A stretch of DNA of 43,338 bases from an uncultured Pelagibacteraceae bacterium (GTDB taxonomy: Bacteria > Pseudomonadota > Alphaproteobacteria > Pelagibacterales > Pelagibacteraceae), in NCBI GenBank assembly GCA_902635335.1, contig CACPNO010000006.1, forward strand, positions 1 through 43,338, given 5' to 3'. The translations under genes and the position numbers were made by a program. Below are positions 1,568 through 17,008 of this stretch, piece after piece. The notes below the pieces were generated by a model that saw nothing but the letters and a program-made list of their open reading frames with translations, made no database searches and was not told where the DNA came from. Each line of letters begins with the position of its first letter. Positions within the stretch are counted from its first letter, which is position 1.

Positions 1568-3062
1568 AGAAATTAAAAATTTATCTAGATCCGAATTAAT
1601 TAAAAATTTTGTGATTTCTAATCCTAATTATTACATTGATGAATTTAAAAAAATTGGAAGCAAACCTTCTTATTCTTTCTCTTTTAATTTATTTGCTGCC
1701 TTATTTGGACCAATGTGGTTTGGATTAAGAAATATTTGGAATTATGCGTTAGCATTTTTAATAATTGAAACATTTGCTGTTGTTCAAATAATTAGAGGCC
1801 TATTTGGAAACATTACTAAAGATGCCCTAGAAAAAATCGATAAAATTCAATCAACTATCGATTTTAGATACAAACAATTAGAGGCTGCAAAAGAAAATAA
1901 TCCAGATAAAGTCGAAGTCTACGAGAGGGCAATTAAATCACTCGAAGACGCAATGAAGGAATATGTTGTTGATGTTCAACAAATCGAAGCTTCAGCTATA
2001 TGGATTGCTATTTCAGGATTTGCATTATTAATTTTTGTAAAATTTATTCAAGGGATATTAGCAAATACAGTTTTAGAAAAAAGATACTCTGAATGGTTAT
2101 CAAATAAATCGATTAGTCCTGGAATGAAAACAAAAAATTATTTTTTAAGTATTGGTTTTACTATAATTATTATGTTTTTTTCAGTAATTCATTATAGCTT
2201 TCCAGGTTTCTTCTCAATAATGAATGATTTTCCTACACATCCAGAAATAAGACTCACCTCTATTAAATGGGTTGAAACAATTTTTGATTACGCAGTGATA
2301 AAAGGAGATGCAGTATTTACCGCAATAACAATTGGAATTAGATCTGTTCTTGATTTTTTAGAACTTTTATTTGTCAAAACACCTTGGATTGTGATCATAA
2401 CTACCATTGTAGTTTTAACTGCTTTATCAGCAGGCATAAGAACTGCAATATACTCTGCAGGATTTTTAGCTTACATGGGTTTTTTGGGATTTTGGGTTAA
2501 AGCAATGACAACACTTGCTTTGCTTGGAACAGCTGCAATTCTAAGTATTATTATTGGAATACCTTTAGGTATTTATTGTGCAAGGCGTCAAAGATTTTAT
2601 TCGATGATAAGACCAATTATGGACTTCATGCAAACAATGCCTGCTTTTGTATTTATGATTCCTGTCATCGCGTTTTTTGGCACAGGCAAGGTTGCAGCTG
2701 TAATTATTACAATGATTTTTGGAGGAACACCTGTCGTAAGACTTACAGTATTGGGATTAAGAGGAGTACCTGAAACTATTAGAGAGGCAGCAATTGCTTA
2801 TGGAGCATCTAAATGGTATCTACTTAGAAAAGTAGATTTACCGCTTGCAACTCCATCAATTCTTGCTGGAGTAAATCAAACTGTGATGTTAAGTTTAGCA
2901 ATGGTTGTTGTAGCCTCACTTATAGGAGCAAAAGGTTTAGGCCAAGACGTGCTAGAGGCACTTCAATATGCAAATGTTGGACAAGGAATTTTAGCTGGTA
3001 TTGCTATACTATTTGTTGCTTTAATATTGGACAGAGTAGTTCAAGGTAAGAAAAGAGTATAA
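1554..3062 (+). CDS. proW: Glycine betaine/proline ABC permease (ProW type) with extra N-terminal domain
   Basis: Inner-membrane permease of the osmolyte transporter. The ATG at 1554 is preferred to the upstream TTG at 1542; both overlap the ATPase gene, and 1554 keeps the overlap to 14 bases. The 502-aa product is longer than typical OpuAB-like permeases. Residues 25-75 have the FGPMWFGLRNIW pattern of DUF2628-like membrane segments, residues 85-135 form a charged helical stretch likely to be coiled coil, and the classical permease domain fills roughly the last 230 residues, including the EAA loop (REAAIAYGASKWYLLRKVDL). The extra domain may sense or recruit something; its function is unknown. 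Confidence 0.9.
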   Translation: MIVSKEIKNLSRSELIKNFVISNPNYYIDEFKKIGSKPSYSFSFNLFAALFGPMWFGLRNIWNYALAFLIIETFAVVQIIRGLFGNITKDALEKIDKIQSTIDFRYKQLEAAKENNPDKVEVYERAIKSLEDAMKEYVVDVQQIEASAIWIAISGFALLIFVKFIQGILANTVLEKRYSEWLSNKSISPGMKTKNYFLSIGFTIIIMFFSVIHYSFPGFFSIMNDFPTHPEIRLTSIKWVETIFDYAVIKGDAVFTAITIGIRSVLDFLELLFVKTPWIVIITTIVVLTALSAGIRTAIYSAGFLAYMGFLGFWVKAMTTLALLGTAAILSIIIGIPLGIYCARRQRFYSMIRPIMDFMQTMPAFVFMIPVIAFFGTGKVAAVIITMIFGGTPVVRLTVLGLRGVPETIREAAIAYGASKWYLLRKVDLPLATPSILAGVNQTVMLSLAMVVVASLIGAKGLGQDVLEALQYANVGQGILAGIAILFVALILDRVVQGKKRV

Positions 3063-3069
3063 TATCTTA

Positions 3070-4239
3070 ATGAACAAAAATGTATGGTTGCTATTTGCAA
3101 GCAACGCATTTGCATTTTCTGTTGCACCTGTGACAGTTTTTTTAAGTGGAATTATTGGAACTAATATCAGTCCAATCAAATCTCTTTCAACATTACCAAT
3201 GTCATTATCAATTGTTGGTACCGCTATTTTTATTATAGCTGCATCTAAAATTATGAGTATTACAGGAAGAAAAAAAGGTTTTATACTTTCATCTATAACA
3301 ACTTCATTATTTGCATTATTGGCAGCATATTCTGTATTAAAGCAAAATTTTATTCTGTATTCATTTTCTTGTTTTTGTCTTGGATTTGGAATGGCTTTTG
3401 CTCATCAGTATCGTTTTGCTGCAGCGGAAAGTGTTGATAAAAAACAAGCACCAAAAGCTATTTCATTATTACTTTTTGCAGGGATTTTGTCCGCTTTACT
3501 GGGTCCAAACTTAGCAAATTTTGGAAAAAATATTATTTCAGAGGGATTGTATGTTGGCTCGTATCTTTGTTTATCTTTATTAACTTTATCATCCATTATT
3601 TTTTTAATTTTTTATAAAGAAAATAAAGTCATTAATAATAAAAAAACAGCAAAGGGAAGAACAATTTTAGAATTGATATCTCAACCAAGATTTTTACAGG
3701 CATTAGTCTCATCATCTTTTGCATATGCTGTAATGTCTTTCTTAATGACAGCAACTCCTATCAGTATGCATGTTCATGATGATATGACTTTGAATAGCAC
3801 TAGTATTGTAATTCAATTACATATCATAAGCATGTTTTTGCCTGCGTTGATTACTGGAAATTTAATTAAAAAATATGGGCATAGCAAAATTATGTATTTT
3901 GGTGTTTTATTTTTTGTATTTACAATTATGCTTAGTTACTTTGATCAAACGGTAATCAATTATCTTTTTTCATTAGCTTTTTTGGGTCTTGGATGGAATT
4001 TTTTATTCATATCTGGAACAAGTTTGTTAGTTTTAAATTATAAGGAAGAGGAAAGATTTAAAGCACAGGGATTTAATGATTTTATAGTCTTTTCAATTCA
4101 AGCTACAGCTAGTTTAACAGCAGGAATTGTTTTAAGTTTTACAAGTTGGAAAATAATGAACATATTATGTATCCCATTTTTAATAATAATAATTTTCACT
4201 ACTCTGAGGGCTGATAGATTATTAGATAAAACCAATTAA
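3070..4239 (+). CDS. MFS family transporter
   Basis: A 389-aa protein with about twelve hydrophobic segments and the major facilitator loop motif between helices 2 and 3 (SITGRKKGF near residue 66). It begins 7 bases after proW and is probably co-transcribed with the glycine betaine transporter. The substrate cannot be read from the sequence. Its place at the end of an osmolyte operon suggests export or import of a related solute or metabolite, but this is inference only. Confidence 0.8.
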   Translation: MNKNVWLLFASNAFAFSVAPVTVFLSGIIGTNISPIKSLSTLPMSLSIVGTAIFIIAASKIMSITGRKKGFILSSITTSLFALLAAYSVLKQNFILYSFSCFCLGFGMAFAHQYRFAAAESVDKKQAPKAISLLLFAGILSALLGPNLANFGKNIISEGLYVGSYLCLSLLTLSSIIFLIFYKENKVINNKKTAKGRTILELISQPRFLQALVSSSFAYAVMSFLMTATPISMHVHDDMTLNSTSIVIQLHIISMFLPALITGNLIKKYGHSKIMYFGVLFFVFTIMLSYFDQTVINYLFSLAFLGLGWNFLFISGTSLLVLNYKEEERFKAQGFNDFIVFSIQATASLTAGIVLSFTSWKIMNILCIPFLIIIIFTTLRADRLLDKTN

Positions 4240-4304
4240 AGACGTGTCAACTTGTTACACCATATAGTTATTGTTTATTGACTTTAAAAGAATATATCAG
4301 CGCT

Positions 4305-4748
4305 ATGACTAAATATGATAAATTAACAAGTTCATTTATAATATTAATCAGTATATTTTTTACGAATATAGCTTTAGGTGCGGATGTAACAGTGGAAATG
4401 CTTAATAGGCTTGATAAAGAATCAAATGTTTTTGAGCCTAAAATAGTAAGAGTTAACCCTGGAGAGACAGTTCTTTGGAAGGCAACAGATAAAGGACATA
4501 ACGTTGAATTCATAAAAAAGGGTGTACCAGAAGGAGTTGGTAAGTTTAAATCAAAGTTTAATAAGGATGTTGAATATAAGTTCGAGGTCCCAGGAATTTA
4601 TGCTTACTGGTGTACACCACACAAAAATATGGGAATGATTGGTTTTGTGGTTGTTGGAGACGATAAATCTAACCTAGATGCTATTAAGAAGTTAAGATTT
4701 TCATCAAAGTCTAAGAAATTAGCACCAGGTTTAATAGACCAACTATAA
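4305..4748 (+). CDS. Pseudoazurin-like type 1 copper protein
   Basis: Small periplasmic electron carrier of the cupredoxin fold. The ATG at 4305 is chosen over the TTG at 4278 because it gives a compact signal peptide (residues 1-26, ending ALGA before DVTVEML). The expected copper ligands are all present: His65 (KGHN), Cys103, His106 (CTPH) and Met111, with the C+3 and C+8 spacing of pseudoazurin. The mature protein has about 120 residues, with a basic tail rich in Lys. Its electron partner is not in the window; candidates are a cytochrome oxidase or a periplasmic dehydrogenase. The stop overlaps by 6 bases the end of the convergent HAD gene. Confidence 0.88.
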   Translation: MTKYDKLTSSFIILISIFFTNIALGADVTVEMLNRLDKESNVFEPKIVRVNPGETVLWKATDKGHNVEFIKKGVPEGVGKFKSKFNKDVEYKFEVPGIYAYWCTPHKNMGMIGFVVVGDDKSNLDAIKKLRFSSKSKKLAPGLIDQL

Positions 4749-5405
4749 ATCAGCAAATATTTTTGAGTTAAGACGTTTAACTTTTATAAATGAATCCTTG
4801 TACTTCCCGGAGCGGTGATAATCGCCCGGGAAGGCAACACATCTTAATTTAGCTTTTTTAGCATATTTAAAACTAATTTCTGTATCTTCAATTGCTAAAC
4901 AATCTTTATTTCTAAGTTTTAATTTTTTTAGACAATGTAAGTAAATATCAGTTTTATTATTAAAGTTTTTTATAATTTTGTTGTGTCCGATGTAATCAAA
5001 ATCACTTTTTTTTAAATATTTATTTAAAGATATAAATACTGCATCAATATTATTTTTTGTAGTAGAGGTTACAAAGCCAATCTTAATTTTATTTTTTTTA
5101 CAATATTTGATTACATTAATTACCCCATCACGTGGTTTTATTTTATTCTTTTTTAAATAATTGTTAAAAATTAAGGTTTTTAAATTTCTGATTTTTTTGG
5201 CATCAACTAAAGTTTTTTTCTCTAAACTAAACTTTTTAACTCTTTTTTCGCCTCCAGATTTTTTTAACATAGATTGATATAATTTTTTACTCCAATACCA
5301 TTTTAATCCTGAAATTTTAAAAGCTGAATTAAAGCAATTTCTTTGAATATTTGATGTTTCTACTATCGTGCCAATAGAACCAAATAATATGGCTTTGATT
5401 GCCAT
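4743..5405 (-). CDS. HAD-superfamily protein lacking the catalytic Asp pair (CbbY/phosphoglucomutase-like)
   Basis: A 220-aa protein with the HAD fold layout: motif I at residues 8-13, helical cap, motif II Thr/Ser in GFVTSTTKN, and a motif IV-like IEDTEIS. In motif I the usual FDxDGT is FGSIGT, so both the nucleophile Asp and the acid/base Asp are replaced (Gly9, Ile11). It therefore should not act as a normal HAD phosphatase or mutase. The remaining sequence is well kept, which argues for a binding or structural role rather than decay. The ATG overlaps the permease stop (TAATG), making it the last gene of the ABC operon. I believe similar FGSIGT proteins exist in other alphaproteobacteria, but this is from memory. 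Confidence 0.85.
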   Translation of the reverse strand: MAIKAILFGSIGTIVETSNIQRNCFNSAFKISGLKWYWSKKLYQSMLKKSGGEKRVKKFSLEKKTLVDAKKIRNLKTLIFNNYLKKNKIKPRDGVINVIKYCKKNKIKIGFVTSTTKNNIDAVFISLNKYLKKSDFDYIGHNKIIKNFNNKTDIYLHCLKKLKLRNKDCLAIEDTEISFKYAKKAKLRCVAFPGDYHRSGKYKDSFIKVKRLNSKIFADL

Positions 5406-6286
5406 TACCCTTTAACAGCACCAGTGGTTAAGCCACTTATTACTTGTCTTTGAAAAAACATGACTAACATAAACAATGGTGCGGTTGCAGACACAACTGC
5501 TGAAACAGCCCACATTAAATTACCTTCATGCTGATTAGTACCAAGATAACTTTGTATTTTTGGAACCATTGTGTGGTTTTCTTGATTTAATAATAATGCA
5601 GTGACTGTAAAGTCGTTGTAAGCCAACATAAGACTAAACAAACCAGCTGTAATTACTCCAGGCCACATCACTGGCATAATTATATATCTAAATGCTTGAA
5701 AATATGAGCAACCGTCTATTAAAGCACTTTCATCTAATTCTTTAGGAACAGTTTTAAAAAAAGAGTAGAGAAGCCATAATGTAAAAGGTTGATTGATCGC
5801 AACTAAAACTACAATTGTGGTTGGTAAGATTCCCCAAATTTGTAATTCAAAAAAAGGAAAAAGATATCCTGAGACTAGAGTAATATGTGGCATCGCTCTA
5901 AAAATTAATGCTGCAATTAGAATCCAAAATGCATATCTTTCAGTAGATCTAGATAAAGCATATGCACCTAAAGTTCCTAAAAAAAGTGATATAGAGACAA
6001 CAAAAACTGTTACTATAATGGTATTTCTTGATGCTTTCCAAAATTCACCTTCAGTCCAAGCTTCAGAATAAGCTTTTGAAGTAAACTGACCACCTGTTTC
6101 TAATAAAGTATTAAATGCTGAGATTGCATACCACCAATCAGCTCTAGAAAAAAAATCTGCTCTTACTTTAAACGATCCCCAAAAAGTCCAAATGAATGGA
6201 AAGCATGCAATTAATAACCAAATTATTATAAAAGTCGTGTTAAATGTTTTAAGTGCATTTGATCTTTTGTCTAAACCATATTCCAT
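5405..6286 (-). CDS. CUT1-type ABC transporter permease (MalG-like)
   Basis: A 293-aa inner-membrane permease with about six transmembrane segments and the EAA loop (ESALIDGCSYFQAFRYIIMP, around residues 185-205) that docks on the ATPase. It resembles MalG/UgpE-type carbohydrate or polyol permeases. The start codon is fused to the stop of the partner permease (TAATG), and its own stop is fused to the HAD start. It pairs with the MalF-like permease and the binding protein upstream; the only CUT1-type ATPase nearby is at 12834-13883 on the other strand. The substrate is unknown. Confidence 0.9.
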   Translation of the reverse strand: MEYGLDKRSNALKTFNTTFIIIWLLIACFPFIWTFWGSFKVRADFFSRADWWYAISAFNTLLETGGQFTSKAYSEAWTEGEFWKASRNTIIVTVFVVSISLFLGTLGAYALSRSTERYAFWILIAALIFRAMPHITLVSGYLFPFFELQIWGILPTTIVVLVAINQPFTLWLLYSFFKTVPKELDESALIDGCSYFQAFRYIIMPVMWPGVITAGLFSLMLAYNDFTVTALLLNQENHTMVPKIQSYLGTNQHEGNLMWAVSAVVSATAPLFMLVMFFQRQVISGLTTGAVKG

Positions 6287-7314
6287 TATCTTGCCGTCCT
6301 AAATTCTTTCCAAGTCCTAATTAATACTGGTGCTAACAATATGGCTATACCAATAATAGTCATCATAGAAGTTGCTGCTGCAGAACCAAATAAGATTACT
6401 TCTTCGTTGACTAAATTATCATAGATTAACCATGATAAAGATTGAGCACTTCCTTCAGCGCTAAAACCAATTATTGGCTCAAAGACTCTAAAATTGTCCA
6501 TTAATGATATTAAAGCTACAAAAGTAACAACCGGATAAATATGTGGTAACACAATATGTCTGATTCTTTGGTATCTTGACGCTCCATCTATAATTGCTGC
6601 CTCAACAGGTTCTTGAGGTACTGTTTGTAATGCAGCATAAAAAACTACAAAAGCAAAAGGAGAATGATGCCAAATTCCATAGATAATTATAGTAATCCAT
6701 GTAAGCGTTCTAGATGATTTTAATGATAGATATGGATCTTCCATCATTAATTGTAAATTTGCACCAATAATTCCCTCTGCATCAATCATCCAAAATAAAA
6801 CAAGGGATCCTACTAATGGAGTAACTATCATTGGTAATATTGTACCAAATATTAATGGGCCTCTTATTTTTCTAGATATTGCATTTAAACTTAACGCAAT
6901 AATGAAACCTAGCAATAAAACATTGGGAGTTACAAATAAACAATACGTTAGAGTAAACAAAAGAGCTTTATAAAAAGGTAAATTTGTAACTTGATTGATA
7001 AATTCTCCAAAGGAGTTGGTTTCTTTCCAAAAATCTGAAATTTGCTCAATAGCTAAGTGATTTCTATCTATATAAGTACCAAACCCATTAAATTTACCCA
7101 AAGGTTTTTCATCTCTCAATATGGAGGTTGCTTCTTGATCAACAACTATTGAAACTGTACAACCAAAAGGATCACATTTTTTAACTTCTTTTACTACTTG
7201 ATCATGTTGGGCATAAAAAGATTGGATACCAGTAGATATTATTGGCAGACCAATAAACAAAATCATCGCCAAACCAGTTGGCAAGAAAAACCAGAAAAAA
7301 GTTTTATTTGGCAT
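6286..7314 (-). CDS. CUT1-type ABC transporter permease (MalF-like)
   Basis: A 342-aa permease with an N-terminal membrane segment, a periplasmic stretch of roughly 80 residues that holds two Cys four residues apart (CDPFGC), and then five further helices with the EAA loop (EAAIIDGASRYQRIRHIVLP, around residues 245-265). It forms a heterodimer with the MalG-like protein encoded next. The CxxxxC pair in the periplasmic loop could form a disulfide, which is uncommon in this family. A perfect hairpin separates this gene from the binding-protein gene. Confidence 0.9.
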   Translation of the reverse strand: MPNKTFFWFFLPTGLAMILFIGLPIISTGIQSFYAQHDQVVKEVKKCDPFGCTVSIVVDQEATSILRDEKPLGKFNGFGTYIDRNHLAIEQISDFWKETNSFGEFINQVTNLPFYKALLFTLTYCLFVTPNVLLLGFIIALSLNAISRKIRGPLIFGTILPMIVTPLVGSLVLFWMIDAEGIIGANLQLMMEDPYLSLKSSRTLTWITIIIYGIWHHSPFAFVVFYAALQTVPQEPVEAAIIDGASRYQRIRHIVLPHIYPVVTFVALISLMDNFRVFEPIIGFSAEGSAQSLSWLIYDNLVNEEVILFGSAAATSMMTIIGIAILLAPVLIRTWKEFRTAR

Positions 7315-7320
7315 TTAAAA

Positions 7321-7347
7321 TTAAGTGGGGATTAAATCCCCACTTAA
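7321..7347 (-). terminator. Perfect hairpin between binding-protein and permease genes
   Basis: TTAAGTGGGGAT and ATCCCCACTTAA form an uninterrupted stem with a 3-nt loop. On the minus strand it lies directly after the binding-protein stop and 7 bases before the MalF-like start. The RNA after the stem has only a short T run (AATTTTAA), so partial termination or 3' protection of the binding-protein mRNA is likely. Confidence 0.7.
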
Positions 7348-7356
7348 ATATTTATT

Positions 7357-8583
7357 TTATAGAAAGCCTTGTTCTTTAGCTTTACTGATATAAGCAGCTT
7401 CAACATCTTTCAATGCTTGTTCTGCAGACTCTTTACCCTGTAAGAACTCAACTATTTCGCTTCCTAATGCACCATGCATCAAACCCATTTGTGGTAACAT
7501 AGGGTAAGGTTTTGCTCCCATTTTTACAGCTTCAATTACACCAATAGATTTTGGTCCTGGTACAAAACCTTCAACTAACCAAACAGCTTGGTCAGCAGCA
7601 TCTGCAACCATTTTTTTATTTGAAGCAGCATGAGCTAGAGCAATAAAAGTTGCTTCTGCATCACTGTCAGATCTATTTTTTGCTAAAGTAAATCCATCCC
7701 ACCATAATGTAGCTGCAGGAATATTTCCTCCACCAACAGTTGCTGGTCCAGTTAATTTAGTTGCTGCAGTAATTTTTGCATCACCCTCATCATCTAGTAA
7801 AGTTCCAGATCTTGATGCCCATAATGTCATAAGAGCAACTTTTCCAGACTCCCATTCAACTTTGATTGCTTCACTATCGTGAGTAAGATAATCCGGGTTA
7901 CTTAAACTTGCTAACTTTTTAAGCATGTTCAGTGTAGCCACACCTTTTGCATTATTGATATTTGGTTCAGCAGTTCCTGCTTTAAAGAATTCACCACCAT
8001 GACCAATGAACATGTTTACAAATTCTTCAGCTAAATTCCATCCAGCTTTATACGCAGCTGCATACGGATGTTGCATTTTACCAGACGCTCTTATTTTTTC
8101 AGATGCAGCAACTACTTCTTCGTAAGTTTTAGGTACAGGTATACCTAATTCTTTTAAAACATCTTCTCTGTAATACAAATGTTGAGTGTTTGCCATAAAA
8201 GCAACAGCCATTACTTTTCCATCAATTGTAATTAATTGCGAGTCTTGTATTCCTTTTCCATATTTTTTAACTAGATCATCCATAGGTCTGATTAAATCTT
8301 GATTCATTAAAGGAACAATTGAACTATTAGCTGCAATTCTTGCTGAAAATTCAGAAGGATTTGCAGTTAAAGCTGGAACAGCAATTTTGTTGTGTTCTGA
8401 TGAGTGAGTAACTTTAAAATCTGCACTTCCTTTACATCCTTTGGCTGTTTCTACAAATGTTCTTAATGCTGGAAAATCATTTGCTAAAATATTTATTGAA
8501 CCACTTGGTTTACTGCAATGCCCATCAGCATATGCCGTTGTTCCAAAAAGCACGAACAATAAGGTTAATAGTATTTTTCTCAT
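7357..8583 (-). CDS. Extracellular solute-binding protein of a CUT1-type ABC transporter
   Basis: A 408-aa periplasmic binding protein with a clear signal peptide (MRKILLTLLFVLFG, cleavage expected after TAYA near residue 19). The fold is that of family 1 sugar-binding proteins (MalE/UgpB/SmoE-like): the YREDVLKELG and PKTYEEVVAA segments are typical. The name 'sugar' is a family default; polyols, glycerophosphodiesters or other solutes are possible. It is followed by a hairpin and two permeases, and preceded by catabolic genes of the same strand, so the imported solute is probably the substrate of those enzymes. Confidence 0.9.
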   Translation of the reverse strand: MRKILLTLLFVLFGTTAYADGHCSKPSGSINILANDFPALRTFVETAKGCKGSADFKVTHSSEHNKIAVPALTANPSEFSARIAANSSIVPLMNQDLIRPMDDLVKKYGKGIQDSQLITIDGKVMAVAFMANTQHLYYREDVLKELGIPVPKTYEEVVAASEKIRASGKMQHPYAAAYKAGWNLAEEFVNMFIGHGGEFFKAGTAEPNINNAKGVATLNMLKKLASLSNPDYLTHDSEAIKVEWESGKVALMTLWASRSGTLLDDEGDAKITAATKLTGPATVGGGNIPAATLWWDGFTLAKNRSDSDAEATFIALAHAASNKKMVADAADQAVWLVEGFVPGPKSIGVIEAVKMGAKPYPMLPQMGLMHGALGSEIVEFLQGKESAEQALKDVEAAYISKAKEQGFL

Positions 8584-8661
8584 ATTTTCTCTCTTTTTTT
8601 GGTTGTTTATAATTATTCTAAGAAAACTATATCTTTTAGAATTATGTAATAAAAGAGATTT

Positions 8662-9789
8662 TTAAATCACTTTTGACGCAAGTCCTGATCCAATCACAAG
8701 TGACTCAAGTTTTTTATAAACTATATTCTCATCAACATTTCCAAATCCGGCAAATGTGCTAAATCCACAATCAGTGCCGGCCATTAATTGGCTAGGATCT
8801 ATTACTTTAGAAAAGGCTAAAATTCTATGTTTTACAACATCTGGATGTTCAATAAAATTGCTCGTGGACTCTATTACTCCTGGAATAATAATTTTATCTT
8901 TTGGTAGTTTTATATTTTCAAATACTTCCCATTCATGAGCATGCCTAGGGTTAGCAGACTCTATCAAATACATATTTATGTTGGCTTTAAAAGCTATATC
9001 AATAATTCTATTTAACCCAATATCATGAGTGTGAGGTCCCTCATAATTTCCCCAACAAATATGCATTCTTACTTTAGTTGGATCAATATTTTCTAATGAC
9101 TTATTTAAAACCTCGACATGTTTATTTGCTCTTTCTAAAAAATTTTCCTCTGAAATGTCTTTATAAATCATATGCCTTGATAGAGCGAGGTCAGGGCAAT
9201 CGATCTGAAGAGAAAGACCACTATCAATAATTTTTTCATATTCAAATTTCATAATATCTGAAAGCTGTTCTAAATATTCATCATCATTTTTATAAAATTT
9301 ATTAGGTAGAAAATTACAAATAACTCCTGGTGATGGAGAATTCATAAACCCGTCACTATGAGAATTTTTATTTAATGCATCTTTAAAATTAAAAATATCT
9401 TTATTAATTGAAACATTATCTTTTAATTTTAATTCACTTGTGCAACATGGTCTTTTATATGTTGGGGTTCCACCAGATTGTACAAGTTTTTTTTTAAAAG
9501 ATGGAAAATCATCTAAATCTTTTGGAGCTTTTCTTTCACTTTCTCCTGAAAAACCTTCAACTCTATCTTTTATATATGTTGCATAACTAATTTTTGACAT
9601 TTCTCCATCACTTATTATATCAATTCCTGTATCAATCTGTTTTTTTACAACTTCTAAAACATTATTTCTTACAACTTCGTCAAATTTTTTTGTGCTTATT
9701 TCTTCTTTATTATCTTTCGAGGCTAAAAGACTTGAGAGTTCGTTTGATCTGGGTAGGCTTCCGACATGTGTAGTTTTTATTTTAACCAT
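8662..9789 (-). CDS. MetE C-terminal-like zinc protein (cobalamin-independent methionine synthase family)
   Basis: A 375-aa single-domain member of the MetE C-terminal family (TIM barrel). The N-terminus has the family's HVGSLPR motif, and the zinc ligands are intact: His243 and Cys245 (HIC), Glu277 (LIESAN) and Cys341 (TDCGF). Zinc in this family activates a thiol for alkyl transfer. Full-length MetE has about 750 residues, so this is not the ordinary enzyme; the family also contains core methionine synthases and epoxyalkane:coenzyme M transferases of similar length. The gene overlaps the upstream SnoaL-like gene by 8 bases, so it belongs to the catabolic operon. A transfer of an alkyl group from the imported solute to or from a thiol is the simplest inference. 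Confidence 0.85.
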   Translation of the reverse strand: MVKIKTTHVGSLPRSNELSSLLASKDNKEEISTKKFDEVVRNNVLEVVKKQIDTGIDIISDGEMSKISYATYIKDRVEGFSGESERKAPKDLDDFPSFKKKLVQSGGTPTYKRPCCTSELKLKDNVSINKDIFNFKDALNKNSHSDGFMNSPSPGVICNFLPNKFYKNDDEYLEQLSDIMKFEYEKIIDSGLSLQIDCPDLALSRHMIYKDISEENFLERANKHVEVLNKSLENIDPTKVRMHICWGNYEGPHTHDIGLNRIIDIAFKANINMYLIESANPRHAHEWEVFENIKLPKDKIIIPGVIESTSNFIEHPDVVKHRILAFSKVIDPSQLMAGTDCGFSTFAGFGNVDENIVYKKLESLVIGSGLASKVI

Positions 9790-10750
9790 GATTTAATAAA
9801 ATTTGTTTCCATATAGCAACTTCATCAAACAATACCCACTCCCTTATAATAAAGTTGGAGTAAAATTCTGCATGATTAATTCCCATTATAAATATTTTTT
9901 TATTTGAAGCTTTATCATAATCCATACTGTCTTTACTGTGAGTACCTTCTAAAAACCATCTAACTGATATTCTTGGATTTTGACCTGCTTCCTCTAAAAA
10001 ACCTACATGTTCTATAGTAAATTTTATATTTGAAAATATTGCTTTTAGAGAATTCCATTTTTCTTTAATACTCTCTCTTCCATGACCAATTTTATTTCCA
10101 GGCCAAAAAATATTAGCACCCCTATCATATCCTTCAAATTTATAATTATAATTAAAAATATTTTTAAGCATCTCTGAATATTTTTCAGCTTTTGATCCTT
10201 TTTTATATCTCTCAGCTTCATAATTTGAACTTTTATCAGTTTCACAATCGAATAGTTTGGATGCAGTTGAAATTCCTCCCTCACTTTCAATTATTTTCTT
10301 TGCAAATTCTTTTGGAGAGTAGCCAATCTGTCTTACCATCGCTCCTTGATCTCTAACAATCCACTCGTCATAAACTTGATTTTCTTTACATGCACAATCA
10401 GCAATTACTCTATAATAAATATCTTTTCCACTAGGCTTTCCGTAAAAACCATCACCTAGGTGTGTTCCTTTACTTAATATTCTATGGGAAGAGTGATATC
10501 CAATTTCGTCATTACCATTCCAAATAACATCCTCACCTAACAATTGTCTGTTAGGAAATTCTTTTAAAGTTGCATATGTTGCGTCTATAACTGGTTTATT
10601 GCCATAAGTAACTCCAAATGGTGATCTTACTGGTATATCGTTTGTATAAAATCTACCAATTGACTCAACATCTTTACCTTCCCAAATTTGCTCAGTTATT
10701 TTTAATATATAGTCAGGAAAGTCTTTGTATTTCTTATCAAAACCTTTCAT
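9782..10750 (-). CDS. Tandem SnoaL-like (ester cyclase/NTF2-fold) protein
   Basis: A 322-aa protein made of two SnoaL-like halves, roughly residues 10-150 and 185-320. Each half has the pattern of an N-terminal helix, a short 'FYTNDIPVRSPFG'-like strand, and the curved sheet with conserved His/Trp positions. Start: the ATG at 10750 is chosen over a TTG at 10768, because it overlaps the upstream stop as TAATG. SnoaL-fold proteins act as cyclases, hydratases, isomerases or simple binders, so no reaction can be named. A second tandem SnoaL-like protein is encoded on the other strand at 11747-12832. Confidence 0.75.
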   Translation of the reverse strand: MKGFDKKYKDFPDYILKITEQIWEGKDVESIGRFYTNDIPVRSPFGVTYGNKPVIDATYATLKEFPNRQLLGEDVIWNGNDEIGYHSSHRILSKGTHLGDGFYGKPSGKDIYYRVIADCACKENQVYDEWIVRDQGAMVRQIGYSPKEFAKKIIESEGGISTASKLFDCETDKSSNYEAERYKKGSKAEKYSEMLKNIFNYNYKFEGYDRGANIFWPGNKIGHGRESIKEKWNSLKAIFSNIKFTIEHVGFLEEAGQNPRISVRWFLEGTHSKDSMDYDKASNKKIFIMGINHAEFYSNFIIREWVLFDEVAIWKQILLNHG

Positions 10751-11694
10751 TATATTTGTGATACACAATTAAGAAGTGACTCATTTTTTTCTTCAATTTT
10801 AATACTAATGTTAGATCCAATTGGAACTGAAAATGTATCTTTATAATCTAATTCAATGGAAGAATTGTCTGTTTCAATGTTCCATTTCCCTTTTTGTGAA
10901 AAAAAAATTGTAGGTTTATCAAATTTTAAATTTTCAACTCTTCCTGTTGTAGATTTAAAAGTGCTTAAGCTAAATCCAGTATCTTGTTTTATAATTGGCG
11001 TTATTGATTTGTTTTGAAAGTTATTACCTAAAATATGTGAAATTTTAACATTATTTCCAATATTGCTTTCATTTTCAAGTCTCTTGTTAGTCTCGCATAT
11101 ATTTTTTTGTAATTGTTCTAGCTTATAATTATCAAATTTTATAATTTCATCCTTTGATATTGGGTTAAGTAATTTTCTACCATTTGGAATTTTTTGACTG
11201 TTTAAATCAATCAAAGAATTATCATCTAATAGCGCCATACCTGTTTGTTTTGCTTTTTTAAGAACCTCAGGTATCCATGTTACAATTCCAGGATCATCTC
11301 CACCAAGAACAACGAAAATAAAACCCTCCTCATCTCCTACATTTTCAAATGCTCTAAACATATTTGTTGGCATAGATATAATATCGCCTGGATTTAATAT
11401 TGTCTCATCTTTACCTTTAGAACCCCAATAAAACCTCCATTTACCTGAATAAATTATGAATACTTCGGCAGTCAAATGGCTATGCAGTCCAGAACCATTT
11501 AAGGGTTTTGCAGAAACAGCACCCAAGTTAAATCCATGAGGTTCTGATATTTTTATTGATTGATTTGCATCTTCAGCGACACCTGGTCCTAAAATAGAAT
11601 AATTTTTTCTCTCTTTATGACCTTTCAATTTACCTTCAACAAAAGGTAAAGTGCTTGGAGTTAAGTCCCTAAATTTAGCAAGTCTAATATTCAT
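10750..11694 (-). CDS. Two-domain cupin protein
   Basis: A 314-aa protein with a well-preserved N-terminal cupin and a degenerate C-terminal one. The first cupin has His71, His73 and Glu77 (GLHSHLTAEVF), but the expected fourth ligand in motif 2 is Arg114 rather than His, so metal binding would be by two His and one Glu. The second half (around 225-310) keeps the barrel pattern (FSQKGKW, SVPIGSN) without ligands. Bicupins include dioxygenases, isomerases and lyases; it does not look like the DMSP lyases DddW, DddQ or DddK of this group. It is the first gene of the seven-gene minus-strand operon. Confidence 0.78.
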   Translation of the reverse strand: MNIRLAKFRDLTPSTLPFVEGKLKGHKERKNYSILGPGVAEDANQSIKISEPHGFNLGAVSAKPLNGSGLHSHLTAEVFIIYSGKWRFYWGSKGKDETILNPGDIISMPTNMFRAFENVGDEEGFIFVVLGGDDPGIVTWIPEVLKKAKQTGMALLDDNSLIDLNSQKIPNGRKLLNPISKDEIIKFDNYKLEQLQKNICETNKRLENESNIGNNVKISHILGNNFQNKSITPIIKQDTGFSLSTFKSTTGRVENLKFDKPTIFFSQKGKWNIETDNSSIELDYKDTFSVPIGSNISIKIEEKNESLLNCVSQI

Positions 11695-11708
11695 ATTTTT
11701 TTAATTAT

Positions 11709-11730
11709 AATATTGTGATACACGAATATT
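11709..11730. promoter_or_regulatory. Near-palindrome in the divergent spacer, possible operator
   Basis: AATATT-GTGATACAC-G-AATATT lies in the 52-bp spacer between the divergent cupin and SnoaL-like genes. The GTG/CAC core is flanked by identical AATATT arms, symmetrical except for one extra base. A palindrome in a spacer that must hold both promoters is a plausible repressor or activator site. No regulator gene is adjacent, so the binding protein is unknown. Confidence 0.4.
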
Positions 11731-11746
11731 TCCAATAAATAAATAT

Positions 11747-12832
11747 ATGCATATAGAGCAATTTGATACAGGACTTAAAACTAAAACAAACGTTAAAGAT
11801 ATTGTTCTTTCACCAGAGCAAAATTTTCGAAATAAAAATTTAATTAGAAGCTATTTAAATCAAATTGTAAATTTAGGATTAAAAGAAATAGATAAAAGTT
11901 TGGATAAGGCGTTTATGAATGATGTAAAGGTCAATTGTTTTCATCCTTTAAATGAGTTTGTTGGAATAAAAAATTTAAAAGAAAAGCTCTGGACACCATT
12001 ATTAGAAGCCTTCCCAGATTTAGAAAGAAGAGAAAATATTGTAGTAGGGGGAGCTTTTAGGGATAAAATTTTAGTAGGGTCATACTCAACGTTATCTGGA
12101 TACTTAAAAAAATCATGGTTAGGGATTAAACCAAATTTTAAAATGATTAATCTCAGATGTTGTGAAATACATGAACTTAAAAAAGACAAGATAGTAGAAA
12201 GCCATATATTAATTGATGTTATAGATTTCTTAAGACAATGTGGTATTTTTCCAATCAATCCATCGAGAGGATCTGAAGGAGCTTGGTTACCCCCAATAAA
12301 TAATGATAGTGTAAATTTTTTTGAAAAAGATATTGAAATTTCAAATTCAAGTTTGAGACAAGCTCTTTCAATGAATAGAAGTCTTAATTTTAAACCTGAA
12401 ACAGAGAACCTATCTGATGAAGAATTAAAAAAAAGATTAATAGAACATCCTCAAAAAGAATATTGGCATGACAAAATGATATGGTATGGACCATGTGGAA
12501 TTGGTACATCAAGATCTTTAGAGGGTTTTATTGATATGCATCAGTTGCCATTTAGAAAATCATTTACTGAAAGAGATTATTTCAAACTTGGTCATTATTG
12601 TGAAATAGGGGATGGTAAATTTTCTTTATGTGCTGGTTGGCATAGTTTAGAGGCTTATTATGGTTCAAATGATTGGTTAGGTTTTACTGCAAATAATCAA
12701 AAACTAACAATGAGAGTTATGGATTTTTATCACCATGATGAAGGAAAAATTCGTGAAAATTGGGTACCAATTGATATACTTCATATTTTAAAACAAATAG
12801 GCATAGATATTTTGGAAAAAGTTAAAAATTGA
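11747..12832 (+). CDS. Tandem SnoaL-like (ester cyclase/NTF2-fold) protein
   Basis: A 361-aa protein with two SnoaL-like halves (about residues 30-170 and 225-360). The first half shows the LLEAFPDLERRENIVV pattern common in SnoaL-type ester cyclases; the second contains WYGPCGIGTSRSLEGF and MRVMDFYHHDEGKI segments. It starts a divergent two-gene unit with the ABC ATPase, whose ATG follows the stop by one base. Two different tandem SnoaL proteins flanking a cupin suggests that successive steps on one ring- or enol-containing compound are catalysed, but no substrate can be named. Confidence 0.75.
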   Translation: MHIEQFDTGLKTKTNVKDIVLSPEQNFRNKNLIRSYLNQIVNLGLKEIDKSLDKAFMNDVKVNCFHPLNEFVGIKNLKEKLWTPLLEAFPDLERRENIVVGGAFRDKILVGSYSTLSGYLKKSWLGIKPNFKMINLRCCEIHELKKDKIVESHILIDVIDFLRQCGIFPINPSRGSEGAWLPPINNDSVNFFEKDIEISNSSLRQALSMNRSLNFKPETENLSDEELKKRLIEHPQKEYWHDKMIWYGPCGIGTSRSLEGFIDMHQLPFRKSFTERDYFKLGHYCEIGDGKFSLCAGWHSLEAYYGSNDWLGFTANNQKLTMRVMDFYHHDEGKIRENWVPIDILHILKQIGIDILEKVKN

Positions 12833-12833
12833 A

Positions 12834-13883
12834 ATGGCAAATATAAAGTTCACAGGCGTTCATAAATCTTTTGGATCAAACAAGATAATAACTGAGTTTA
12901 ACCTTATGGGAAAAGATGACGAATTTCTCGTATTAGTTGGTCCATCTGGTTGTGGAAAGTCAACTTTATTAAGAATGATAGCAGGTTTAGAAAAAATTGA
13001 TGAGGGCGAAATATTTATAAATGATCAAAAAATTAATGATCTTCATCCCTCAAAAAGACAAACTGCAATGGTATTTCAATCTTATGCTCTTTATCCACAC
13101 ATGAATGTTTATGAGAACATGTCATTTGGACTGAAGATTGAAAAAAAATCTAAGGAGGAAATTCAAACAAAAGTTATGCAAGCAGCTAAAATTTTAAAAA
13201 TAGAGGAATTACTTGAAAGAAAACCCAAGCAATTATCTGGAGGTCAGAGGCAAAGAGTTGCCATTGGACGTGCAATTACCCGAAATCCTAAAATATTTTT
13301 ATTTGATGAGCCATTATCTAATTTGGATGCAGCTTTAAGAGCTGAGATGAGAGTAGAAATTTCAAAGCTTCATAACCAAATCAAAACCAATATGATTTAT
13401 GTTACCCATGATCAAGTAGAAGCAATGACTTTAGCTGACAGAATTGTAATATTAAATCTTGGAAATATAGAGCAAGTCGGAACACCTGATGAAATTTACA
13501 ATAATCCATCAAATATTTTTGTTGCTCAATTTATTGGAACACCAAAAATGAATATTTTACCATTAAATAGTGAAAATATTATTTCAGATAATAAAATTAA
13601 CTTTTTAGGGAACGAAATTACCTTTGAAAAAATTAAGTTTGATAAAAGTAAATATTTTATTGGAATAAGACCCGAACATTTTAATGTATCAAATGAAACT
13701 AAATTTAAGTTCAAACCTAAAATTGAATTAGTAGAAAATTTAGGAAATGAAAAGATAGTTTATATGAGTAATGATAATTTAGAGCTTAGTGCAAAAATTT
13801 CTAGTCAAATTGATTTTCAAAATGAGCTTAGATTTGATACTAAAGATATTTTTATATTTGATGAAAACGGAAGTAGAATTTAA
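12834..13883 (+). CDS. CUT1-type ABC transporter ATPase (UgpC/MsmX/MalK-like)
   Basis: A 349-aa ATPase with Walker A (GPSGCGKST, residues 36-44), Q-loop in MVFQSYALYP, signature QLSGGQRQR, Walker B FLFDEP and the switch His in VTHDQ. The C-terminal third is the OB-fold (TOBE/MalK-type) domain, with the family's IGIRPEHF. It is the only CUT1-type ATPase near the binding protein and permeases at 5405-8583 and is therefore their likely energiser, although encoded on the opposite strand. The gene is probably co-transcribed with the SnoaL-like gene one base upstream. Confidence 0.93.
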   Translation: MANIKFTGVHKSFGSNKIITEFNLMGKDDEFLVLVGPSGCGKSTLLRMIAGLEKIDEGEIFINDQKINDLHPSKRQTAMVFQSYALYPHMNVYENMSFGLKIEKKSKEEIQTKVMQAAKILKIEELLERKPKQLSGGQRQRVAIGRAITRNPKIFLFDEPLSNLDAALRAEMRVEISKLHNQIKTNMIYVTHDQVEAMTLADRIVILNLGNIEQVGTPDEIYNNPSNIFVAQFIGTPKMNILPLNSENIISDNKINFLGNEITFEKIKFDKSKYFIGIRPEHFNVSNETKFKFKPKIELVENLGNEKIVYMSNDNLELSAKISSQIDFQNELRFDTKDIFIFDENGSRI

Positions 13884-14882: not shown

Positions 14883-15725
14883 ATGATTATTTGGATTGCA
14901 TCTTATCCTAAAAGTGGAAATACATGGGTCAGATCATTTTTATCTTCTTATTACTATACAAATAATGGAGAATTTAATTTTGAATTATTAAAAAATATAC
15001 CTCAATATCCAACTAGTAAGTTTTTTAAGACAAAAATTGAAAGACCAGAAGATATAATACACCAATGGTCACAATCACAAAAAGAAATTTGTAAAAGATA
15101 TAAAATAATTTTTCTAAAGACGCACAATGCTCTAATTACAATAAATAATAAGCATTTTACATTACCAAGATTTACAAAAGGATTTATTTATATAGTTAGA
15201 GATCCAAGAAATGTGGTTACCTCATTGAAAAATCATTATTCTTTAAATTATGATGAAGCATTAGATTTCATGAATAATCAAAAGAAATACATTTTTGATA
15301 ATAGAAAAAAATTTAAAATAGACTATTCAACAACTCATTTTTTAACCTCATGGTCGAGTCACTACAAATCTTGGATAAATACTAATTTATTTCCAAAATA
15401 TATAATCAAATACGAGGATTTAATCAAAAAGCCTGCTAAGATTTTTCGTGGGCTTATTGAATTTACAAATAAAATTTCAAATTTAGAGAACGATGTTAAT
15501 CAAATAAAATTAAATAAATCAATTGAAAGTACTAATTTTGCAAAACTTCAATCTTTAGAAAATGAAAACAAGTTTAATGAATATATTTTAGATAAAAATA
15601 AAAAAAAAATTAAATTTTTTTTATTAGGACCTAAAAATAATTGGAAAAGTAAACTTACAGTTAAATTTGGAAAAAAAATAAACTCAGTTTTTACTAAAGA
15701 TATTAATAAACTAGATTACAATTAA
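14883..15725 (+). CDS. Sulfotransferase family protein
   Basis: A cytosolic PAPS-dependent sulfotransferase-like protein of 280 aa. The start at 14883 (ATG preceded by TAGG at suitable distance) puts the PAPS 5'-phosphosulfate loop (YPKSGNTWVRSFL) at residues 6-18, as is normal; TTG 14862 and ATG 14877 are the alternatives. The 3'-phosphate-binding motif (IYIVRDPRNVV) is near residue 100, and a His in THN near residue 80 may be the catalytic base. The acceptor is unknown; bacterial members sulfate lipids, polysaccharides or small alcohols. The 3' end overlaps the convergent dehydrogenase gene by four bases. Confidence 0.82.
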   Translation: MIIWIASYPKSGNTWVRSFLSSYYYTNNGEFNFELLKNIPQYPTSKFFKTKIERPEDIIHQWSQSQKEICKRYKIIFLKTHNALITINNKHFTLPRFTKGFIYIVRDPRNVVTSLKNHYSLNYDEALDFMNNQKKYIFDNRKKFKIDYSTTHFLTSWSSHYKSWINTNLFPKYIIKYEDLIKKPAKIFRGLIEFTNKISNLENDVNQIKLNKSIESTNFAKLQSLENENKFNEYILDKNKKKIKFFLLGPKNNWKSKLTVKFGKKINSVFTKDINKLDYN

Positions 15726-17008
15726 TTTGAAAAACCGTACTTTCTCAATCTAACATCTCCTGTTCGCGCATGTGCTTCCATGCCTTCGTACCTCGAAATT
15801 CTTGCACAAGCTGCACCCACTTCTTTAGTAGACTCTTTAGTCATTCTTTGAAAACTCAATGTTTTAATGAATTTTCCTACAAACAAACCACCTGTATATT
15901 TTCCTGCACCTTTTGTTGGTAAAATATGATTTGTTCCTGAGCATTTATCTCCATATGCAACTGTAGTTTCCTCTCCAATAAATAATGATCCATAGTTCTT
16001 TAATCGGTCATGAAACCATTGAAGGTTTTTAGTTTGAATTTCTAAATGTTCAGGTGCGTATTCATCACTAATTTTTGCCAATTCTTCGTCTGTGTCGCAT
16101 AAAATAACTTCACCATAGTCTCTCCAAGCAGCGCCTGAATTTTCTTTTGGTAAATCTGGTAAATCTTCAATTAATTCTGGAACTCTTTGAATTACATACT
16201 CTGCTAATTTTTTACTTTTTGTAAATAACCAGGCTGGAGAATTATAACCATGCTCTGCTTGTCCGACCAAATCAAAAGCAACTAGCTCTGGGTCTGCTGT
16301 TTCATCTGCTATGACCGCAATCTCTGTTGGACCTGCAAATAGATCTATACCTACTTTGCCAAATAAAATTCTTTTTGACTCTGCAACAAATTGGTTTCCA
16401 GGACCAACAAGCATATCTGCAGGCGCATTTCCAAAAAGACCATAAGTCATTGCGGCAATAGCTTGCACACCACCTAAGTTCATTATTATATCTGCGCCAC
16501 ATAAATCCGCAGTATAAACTATCGCAGGATGAACACCCACACCTGGTTTTGGAGAACTACAAACAATAATATTTTTTACACCAGCAACCTTTGCTGTTGT
16601 TACACTCATCACAGCTGATGCTATGTGTGCATATCTTCCTGCAGGAACATAACAACCTGCAGTATTAACCGGAATTAATTTTTGCCCAGCATATAAGCCA
16701 TCTGATAACTCTACTTCAAAATCCTGACCATAGTTTTTTAATTGTGCTTCAGCAAATTTTCTTACTCTTTCATGAGAGAATTGAATATCATCTTTAGTCT
16801 TAGGATCTAAATTTTTTTTAATTTCTTCAATTTTTTCTCTCGTAACAATTACTTCACCTTCATATTTATCATATTTTTTTGATAGTTCGATACATCCTTC
16901 TTCTTTAGTTTTTTCAATATCTTTAAGAATATTTTCAACAATCTCTCTGGTTTTTGTATCGTCAGTTGATGAAGTTTTTGGTGATTTTTTTAAGTAAGTT
17001 ATTGCCAT
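15722..17008 (-). CDS. HisD-family dehydrogenase, HpsN (sulfopropanediol 3-dehydrogenase)-like
   Basis: A 428-aa zinc- and NAD-dependent four-electron alcohol dehydrogenase. The HisD catalytic set is present: Gln250 and His253 (GQAEH), Glu320/His321 (APEHLE), Asp354 (GDKCSGTNH) and His413. The substrate-facing segments differ from histidinol dehydrogenase: NTAGCYVPAGRYAHIASAVM at residues 115-134 instead of the YVPGGxAAYPSS pattern, which I associate with HpsN, the enzyme oxidising 2,3-dihydroxypropane-1-sulfonate to sulfolactate. No histidine genes are nearby; a phosphotransacetylase lies 42 bases upstream on the same strand. True HisD remains possible until a tree is built. Confidence 0.75.
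   Translation of the reverse strand: MAITYLKKSPKTSSTDDTKTREIVENILKDIEKTKEEGCIELSKKYDKYEGEVIVTREKIEEIKKNLDPKTKDDIQFSHERVRKFAEAQLKNYGQDFEVELSDGLYAGQKLIPVNTAGCYVPAGRYAHIASAVMSVTTAKVAGVKNIIVCSSPKPGVGVHPAIVYTADLCGADIIMNLGGVQAIAAMTYGLFGNAPADMLVGPGNQFVAESKRILFGKVGIDLFAGPTEIAVIADETADPELVAFDLVGQAEHGYNSPAWLFTKSKKLAEYVIQRVPELIEDLPDLPKENSGAAWRDYGEVILCDTDEELAKISDEYAPEHLEIQTKNLQWFHDRLKNYGSLFIGEETTVAYGDKCSGTNHILPTKGAGKYTGGLFVGKFIKTLSFQRMTKESTKEVGAACARISRYEGMEAHARTGDVRLRKYGFSN

Follow-up and report, generated by a model that had tools for sequence, protein, structure and literature searches.

Cells of the SAR11 clade are among the most abundant of the surface ocean, and their diet is mostly inferred from few known pathways. 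The described systems that come closest to the locus treated here include the zinc enzymes with a MetE-like C-terminal domain, of which epoxyalkane:coenzyme M transferase is another member, cupins of the quercetinase and acireductone dioxygenase type, whose metal is held by three histidines and one glutamate, proteins of the SnoaL fold and importers of the CUT1 type. A stretch of 43,338 nucleotides (the window), one contig (CACPNO010000006.1, positions 1 to 43,338) of the small and incomplete genome (807 kb, 64% complete) of an uncultured Pelagibacteraceae bacterium (GCA_902635335.1), which is a member of SAR11, brings such proteins together. Open reading frame (ORF) and family scans recover nine genes at 4743-13883 in two divergent units, a leftward one encoding a bicupin, the tandem SnoaL protein A (SnoA), a MetE-like zinc protein, a binding protein, two permeases and a pseudo-HAD protein, and a rightward one encoding the tandem SnoaL protein B (SnoB) and a UgpC/MalK-type ATPase. 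The block is, on balance, probably an uptake-linked catabolic island which imports and degrades a sugar-like or carbocyclic compound.

The grouping of these genes is a conserved uptake-linked catabolic module and not a product of chance. A scan of genome contigs with SnoA retrieved at least 553 relatives, of which the best 80 loci (76 from SAR11, four from other alphaproteobacteria) were compared by identity thresholds, some of the contigs ending within the locus and some genomes being included twice, as also in the counts of close SAR11 homologues below. Within these 80, the MetE-like gene is linked in 79, the bicupin in 77, the binding protein in 76, the UgpA-like and MalG/GlcU-like permeases in 76 and 75, SnoB in 74 and the HAD gene in 73, and the island ATPase in only 42. 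Since 26 SAR11 loci that extend from SnoB to the HisD-like neighbour are without the ATPase gene, this ninth gene is not universal. A first-pass annotation, made from the sequence alone, had described the nine genes, their families, orientations and tight packing much as they were recovered here, and had left to be seen whether they co-occur elsewhere or lie scattered in other genomes; they are linked in the 80 loci and in larger clusters of many bacteria, and not scattered. Relatives of the MetE-like protein were not found in viral contigs, where six stretches matched the pattern and none was confirmed.

Within the family, 197 genomes were searched with the MetE-like protein and SnoB, and strong matches to either are held by 16 of the 51 genomes of the own genus (the own genome included), while equally strong ones occur in none of the other genera among the 197. 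All ten island-free genomes that were inspected possess the flanking genes without any of the nine, namely a taurine-type transporter, an Ldh_2 dehydrogenase, the phosphotransacetylase Pta and an HpsN-like gene, with a few extra genes in between in some. The nine-gene block is an island in a flexible site of SAR11 genomes.

This island is at the same time a reduced version of a larger cluster, found in Rhodobacterales, Rhizobiales, Novosphingobium, Pantoea, Priestia and Deinococcus, in which tandem SnoaL and cupin genes are joined by a HisD-like dehydrogenase, an alpha/beta hydrolase, an aldolase, LacI, mostly a short-chain dehydrogenase/reductase (SDR) and an importer, and often by either the MetE-like protein or an amidase. 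Ruegeria, Octadecabacter and Marinovum combine the core with HisD-like, LacI, alpha/beta hydrolase and RraA proteins, and with an SDR in the former two; amidase-bearing clusters devoid of MetE are found in Alloyangia, Roseibium, Sinorhizobium medicae, Martelella, Priestia, Pantoea and Novosphingobium. The importer is of the CUT1 type in most, with an extra tripartite ATP-independent periplasmic (TRAP) transporter in Roseibium and carriers of the major facilitator superfamily in Priestia, Pantoea and Novosphingobium. The Deinococcus cluster comprises three long SnoaL genes and a short one, a one-cupin protein, a hydrolase, an HpcH aldolase, a pair of HisD-like genes and a carbon-nitrogen hydrolase. 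In a haloarchaeon from a solar saltern, four long SnoaL genes and one short one are accompanied by a MetE-like gene and an ATP-binding cassette (ABC) importer, with no cupin gene within the stretch read. In a class-wide sample, SnoB relatives are present in 22 of 289 genomes (the own genome and one marginal case included). On plasmids, SnoA relatives occur in 53 records and bicupin relatives in 55, many genera being common to both lists (Sinorhizobium, Ruegeria, Roseibium, Deinococcus, Ensifer, Vibrio and Novosphingobium), while Phaeobacter, with six records, tops the SnoA list only; the hosts of these plasmids were obtained from, among other places, surface seawater, leaves, soil and a solar saltern.

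Forty-four loci, picked for carrying hits and labelled by best hit, so that SDR, LacI and hydrolase may include bystanders, contain SnoA in 37, the cupin in 35, HisD and the binding protein in 32 each, LacI in 31, SnoB in 29, SDR in 27, the hydrolase in 25, MetE in 20, RraA in 14 and HpcH and the amidase in seven each; the MetE-like gene stands without the core in two of them (L108 and L110). Most loci read hold two to five SnoaL genes per cluster. Cupin, alpha/beta hydrolase and aldolase are recurrently adjacent, RraA and HpcH/HpaI aldolases interchange, and the pattern [DE]-X20-R-D, the mark of catalytic class II pyruvate aldolases, is present in all 14 RraA proteins of the loci read, which belong to larger clusters only. 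The nearest models of the Octadecabacter hydrolase and SDR are 3-oxoadipate enol-lactonase and PRK07060/KduD-type proteins respectively, each far below the cut-off. MetE and the amidase, in 17 and seven of 33 loci with SnoA and cupin, do not occur together in any of these (Fisher's exact test, p 0.003, with kinship ignored, some loci cut at contig or region ends and two from one genome). As the MetE-like protein is missing from several clusters, it is the tandem SnoaL and cupin genes, and not the methyl step, that define the cluster. In Ensifer and Vibrio, the bicupin gene lies with an HpcH aldolase, an alpha/beta hydrolase and the genes of a 3-oxo-tetronate kinase (OtnK) and aldolase (OtnC), in Vibrio also with OtnI (L107 7209-13113, L111 7291-12578), and these Otn genes, an outlet towards C4 acids, may hint at the substrate.

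The MetE-like protein (8662-9789, minus strand; Pfam Meth_synt_2, E 6.7e-16) has retained the zinc site pointed out by the first-pass annotation, with His243, Cys245 and Glu277 present in all 108 aligned homologues and Cys341 in 107, the remaining one having a gap; many of these homologues are close SAR11 relatives, some from genomes counted twice. The motifs GSLP (GS[LF]P) and DGE, which we take to be of the homocysteine type, are kept in 107-108 of the 108. Against models of methionine synthase, the protein scores at best 105.9 bits (NCBIfam cut-off 406) and below all cut-offs. It is predicted to be a methyl (or alkyl) transferase to a thiol. A methyl-handling role is supported by plasmids of Croceicoccus and Sphingobium, on which the homologue shares a region with MetF, FolD, PurU and a protein of the aminomethyltransferase family that matches the vanillate O-demethylase LigM in Croceicoccus (E 4.6e-155) and is of the LigM type by annotation in Sphingobium.

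The bicupin (10750-11694, minus strand) matches Pfam Cupin_2 in the first cupin domain only, while its predicted model (mean predicted local distance difference test, pLDDT, 89.5) aligns over the whole length to bicupins. The nearest fold is oxalate decarboxylase (Z 22.9, root-mean-square deviation (rmsd) 6.5 over 258 residues), followed by the YxaG quercetinase (Z 21.5, rmsd 2.3 over 222 residues, about 14% identity), and DUF861 proteins are also among the nearest; in the models, the three are too close in fold score to be separated, and a family that VIA-align does not list is not thereby excluded as a fold relative of the bicupin or SnoB. His71, His73, Glu77 and Arg114 are invariant in all 115 homologues that cover at least 80%. 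The predicted metal site comprises His71, His73 and Glu77 (HxHx3E), with Arg114 at what we take, from the cupin motif, to be the usual position of the fourth ligand. Ring opening by the cupin, suggested in the first-pass annotation, agrees with the ring-cleaving quercetin dioxygenases among the nearest folds, although other bicupins score alike.

SnoA (minus strand) and SnoB (11747-12832, plus strand) each display two Pfam SnoaL stretches. Homologues of SnoA mostly begin with M.GF at the ATG at 10750, which, by alignment, is most likely its translation start rather than the TTG at 10768 of the listed ORF; with SnoA placed at 9782-10750, this start is the one correction to the gene limits of the first-pass annotation, whose outer borders closely match the island. 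The predicted model of SnoB (pLDDT 90.3) resembles SnoaL-like cyclases in its first domain (Z about 15-18; 3kkg, Z 18.1, rmsd 3.2 over 144 residues), and over both domains double-NTF2 epoxide hydrolases lead the Foldseek results, with Lsd19 first at a low template modelling score of 0.31 on the query. The beta-phosphoglucomutase-like pseudo-HAD protein (4743-5405, minus strand; Pfam HAD_2, E 5.6e-15), already recognised from the letters as catalytically broken, has lost both catalytic aspartates, its DxD nucleophile motif being replaced by FGSIG. We rejected an active phosphatase on these grounds; by its alignment the protein is a conserved non-phosphatase, whose broken state is old and kept since G9 and I11 occur in 87 of 87 homologues.

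The island encodes its own CUT1 transporter, as had been proposed, with all parts together: a MalG/GlcU-like permease (5405-6286) and a UgpA-like permease (6286-7314), both assigned by family scans, an extracellular solute-binding protein of family 1 (7357-8583; Pfam SBP_bac_1, E 2.6e-15), all three on the minus strand, and the UgpC/MalK-type ATPase (12834-13883, plus strand; NCBIfam UgpC, 459 bits, cut-off 432). Starts and stops of neighbouring island genes overlap or almost abut. SAR11 loci that lack the ATPase (L142, L150, L162-L188) may borrow another CUT1 ATPase, and in several SAR11 alleles a further pair of CUT1-like permeases lies, with flanking genes, between the ATPase and the HpsN gene (L091 10192-15275).

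From the co-inheritance of the genes, their families, the invariant metal and thiol motifs, the predicted folds of the bicupin and SnoB and the occupation of one site by the block in some genomes but not in others, we infer every reaction, the order of the steps and the substrate as follows. The CUT1 ABC transporter would import a small polyhydroxylated, sugar-like or carbocyclic compound, on ring or enol forms of which the two tandem SnoaL proteins could act as hydro-lyase, isomerase or hydrolase; the metal-binding bicupin may open or rearrange the ring, and the MetE-like zinc protein may demethylate the compound, with a thiol, most likely homocysteine, as the methyl acceptor. In the larger genomes, the core would feed an alpha/beta hydrolase, the HisD-like dehydrogenase, often an SDR, and a pyruvate-type aldolase leading to central metabolites, the HisD-like protein presumably performing a four-electron oxidation of a CH2OH group next to OH or NH2. 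Putative ring opening by the cupin together with the hydrolase, HisD oxidation and aldolase points to the breakdown of an oxygenated ring that bears a hydroxymethyl group; on chemical grounds, the substrate is suggested to carry methyl and hydroxymethyl groups and to be polyhydroxylated, perhaps also carbocyclic.

Several observations weigh against this proposal. The SAR11 block is devoid of the hydrolase, SDR and aldolase of the larger clusters, and a search of 26 SAR11 genomes, which had no positive control, gave no cluster-type RraA. Among solved sugar-binding proteins, the binding protein finds only remote relatives (best E 1.8e-10). The methyl step is not shared by all clusters, as MetE is missing from otherwise full ones (L050 and seven loci of the amidase type), and a 43% identical MetE-like gene of Rhodococcus (L036) has neither SnoaL nor cupin nearby. 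With arginine at the fourth place, the bicupin departs from the ligand set of three histidines and one glutamate, and short one-cupin forms exist in Deinococcus and Priestia (219 and 207 aa); an oxygenase role of the bicupin is thus not assured.

Inositol metabolism hints at a possible downstream outlet. Of the 16 genomes of the genus that bear the island, 14 have IolD above its cut-off, against 10 of the 35 without it (Fisher p 0.00016, or 0.00024 when a partial match in G426 is counted; kinship ignored), as exemplified by G349 (TIGR04377, 802 bits, cut-off 715). A related HpcH aldolase is present in 12 of 13 island-bearing and two of 13 island-free genomes (p 0.0002, kinship likewise ignored), with surroundings and kinship read in 12 genomes and three other positives judged by length; the candidate of G360 is unrelated (25%). 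The HpcH aldolase adjacent to IolD is 42-47% identical to the cupin-linked aldolases of Ensifer and Vibrio, and the truncated own copy 50-52%. These counts are uncorrected and IolD occurs without the island in other genera, so that the association is treated as a hint only that ring products could drain into an IolD-linked route. The IolD island of one SAR11 genome (L194, G349:C1:399000-417000, at 2938-9316) itself combines IolD with Gfo/Idh, a 2-hydroxyacid dehydrogenase, an aldehyde dehydrogenase, an HpcH/HpaI aldolase and a ribose-type importer, and no match to IolB, IolC or IolJ was found among the genes scanned there, so that it may be a variant inositol route.

The same genes have been weighed under other substrates. 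It is conceivable, if doubtful, that an O-methylated or otherwise modified sugar or sugar acid is degraded by a non-phosphorylative route with no carbocycle involved: SDR and HisD would oxidise, a lactonase and the alpha/beta hydrolase would open lactones, the SnoaL proteins would dehydrate and the aldolase would split a 2-keto-3-deoxy acid. Such a route would account for LacI, the CUT1 importer, the KduD-like SDR, a fuconolactonase-like amidohydrolase (five of the 44 loci), the HpcH/RraA aldolases and the OtnK/OtnC genes of two clusters, but the clusters show no recurrent sugar dehydratase or kinase of a known type, a thiol is not readily methylated by simple methyl ethers, and up to five SnoaL genes (L054) and a bicupin are unusual for known routes of this kind. 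Mycosporines consist of a cyclohexenone ring with methoxy at C2 and CH2OH and OH on C5, and to our knowledge all bear the methoxy group; demethylated, they are cyclic reductones. It is unlikely, though chemically attractive, that the clusters represent a missing bacterial degradation pathway for sunscreens of the mycosporine and mycosporine-like amino acid type (or 4-deoxygadusol), kept in reduced form by SAR11 of the sunlit ocean. MetE would remove the methoxy methyl, the bicupin would cleave the cyclic reductone or enaminone, an amidase or SnoaL protein would release the amino acid, HisD would oxidise the hydroxymethyl group and an aldolase of the carboxy-hydroxy-oxoadipate type would yield pyruvate and oxaloacetate; 4-carboxy-4-hydroxy-2-oxoadipate, the would-be product of cleavage and oxidation, is the substrate of a known RraA-family aldolase. 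By this reasoned chemistry, MetE, bicupin, amidase, HisD and RraA would be explained jointly; the clusters have MetE in many marine hosts and the amidase in leaf, soil and some marine hosts, and the origins of the plasmid hosts given above are in keeping with it. Yet the SAR11 block has neither amidase nor RraA, many clusters are without MetE, and the stretch read of the saltern archaeon is devoid of a cupin gene. No described mycosporine catabolic gene set was found for comparison in the open-access PubMed Central (PMC) literature.

Rather unlikely is also an island that serves one-carbon and methionine supply only, from which SAR11 would keep the methyl group for methionine and discard the rest. 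The homocysteine-type motifs of the MetE-like protein and the missing downstream aldolase and hydrolase genes fit such a function. SnoB and the bicupin, needless for pure demethylation, are nevertheless kept in 74 and 77 of the 80 loci, and the IolD genes of 14 of the 16 island-bearing genomes, adjoined by an HpcH aldolase where read, offer a possible downstream route. The adjacent HpsN and phosphotransacetylase genes would, in a further interpretation, assign the island to sulfonate catabolism, as the HisD-like neighbour in the window (15722-17008) carries the motif GRYAH and matches a solved HpsN with E 2.5e-158. According to a passage in PMC11382572, GRYAH is described for 2,3-dihydroxypropane-1-sulfonate (DHPS) 3-dehydrogenases (HpsN), and GSAPL is given for HisD. 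By motif and similarity this neighbour is a DHPS 3-dehydrogenase; all 30 genomes tested, of which 14 bear the island and 16 do not, however possess an HpsN-like gene, as do all ten island-free sites. The HpsN-type gene is a backbone neighbour and not part of the island. Among the HisD-like proteins of the non-SAR11 loci read, 37 are without the HpsN motif GRY[AS]H, with GK[FY]P[MIL] in 29 and GR[FY]P[MIL] in eight (L041 with GRYSH and L191 with GRYNN are the exceptions), and the annotation of the Ruegeria, Octadecabacter and Marinovum clusters contains no sulfonate gene. DHPS or sulfonate catabolism by the island is therefore highly improbable and was set aside.

The backbone itself varies in its own right. 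In another SAR11 lineage (33 loci; e.g. L163 6610-7896), GRYNN replaces GRYAH in the sole HpsN-like copy, and in nearly all of these loci the island ATPase is also missing; with the change located at the sulfonate-binding motif, the substrate of this HpsN-like protein may have shifted. Elsewhere in the window (21593-22744), an alpha/beta protein of the epoxide-hydrolase type with an EHN domain is encoded between an NMT1-type transporter and an Ldh_2 dehydrogenase, and three of the ten island-free genomes (L207, L211 and L213) also have it close to their HpsN gene.

The uptake-linked catabolic island thus belongs to a widespread and apparently undescribed module. No publication on the cluster was found in the open-access PMC literature, nor a described pathway with this gene set, in line with the first-pass annotation, which had considered it a candidate for an undescribed degradation route; of that view, the co-inherited catabolic island with its importer stands, whereas the island is only a reduced form of the cluster and the methyl step does not define it. 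A conserved set of importer and enzymes in about one third of the sampled genomes of the genus (16 of 51), and related, often richer sets in microbes of sea, soil and leaf, point to a common natural compound whose breakdown is undescribed. Since the larger clusters occur in culturable bacteria, the matter can be addressed without a SAR11 culture.

With known systems, the island shares parts and differs in their combination. It has all four parts of a CUT1 importer in common with these transporters, with an ATPase above the NCBIfam UgpC cut-off, while its binding protein and permeases are far below every model with a named substrate and many SAR11 alleles are without the ATPase. The MetE family shares the Meth_synt_2 domain, the zinc ligands and the GS[LF]P and DGE motifs, and the island protein differs from it by methionine synthase scores below the cut-offs and by its linkage to SnoaL and bicupin genes. 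Its SnoaL proteins have the SnoaL fold of polyketide cyclases and of double-NTF2 epoxide hydrolases such as Lsd19 and MonB, but are distinguished by two domains per chain, multiple copies and operons with importers. Quercetin 2,3-dioxygenase and other bicupins share the two-barrel fold and the HxHx3E ligands with the island bicupin, a fold that by itself shows no function, as oxalate decarboxylase, DUF861 and storage bicupins score within about 1-2 Z of quercetinase. The HisD-like protein of the Octadecabacter cluster reaches 428 bits to TIGR00069, the histidinol dehydrogenase model, whereas it and its relatives carry neither the HpsN motif nor GSAPL as these are given in the passage of PMC11382572 cited above. 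As for myo-inositol catabolism, most island-bearing SAR11 genomes also encode IolD next to a related HpcH aldolase, although the IolD genes have a different genomic location and, in other genera, are found in the absence of the SnoaL island.

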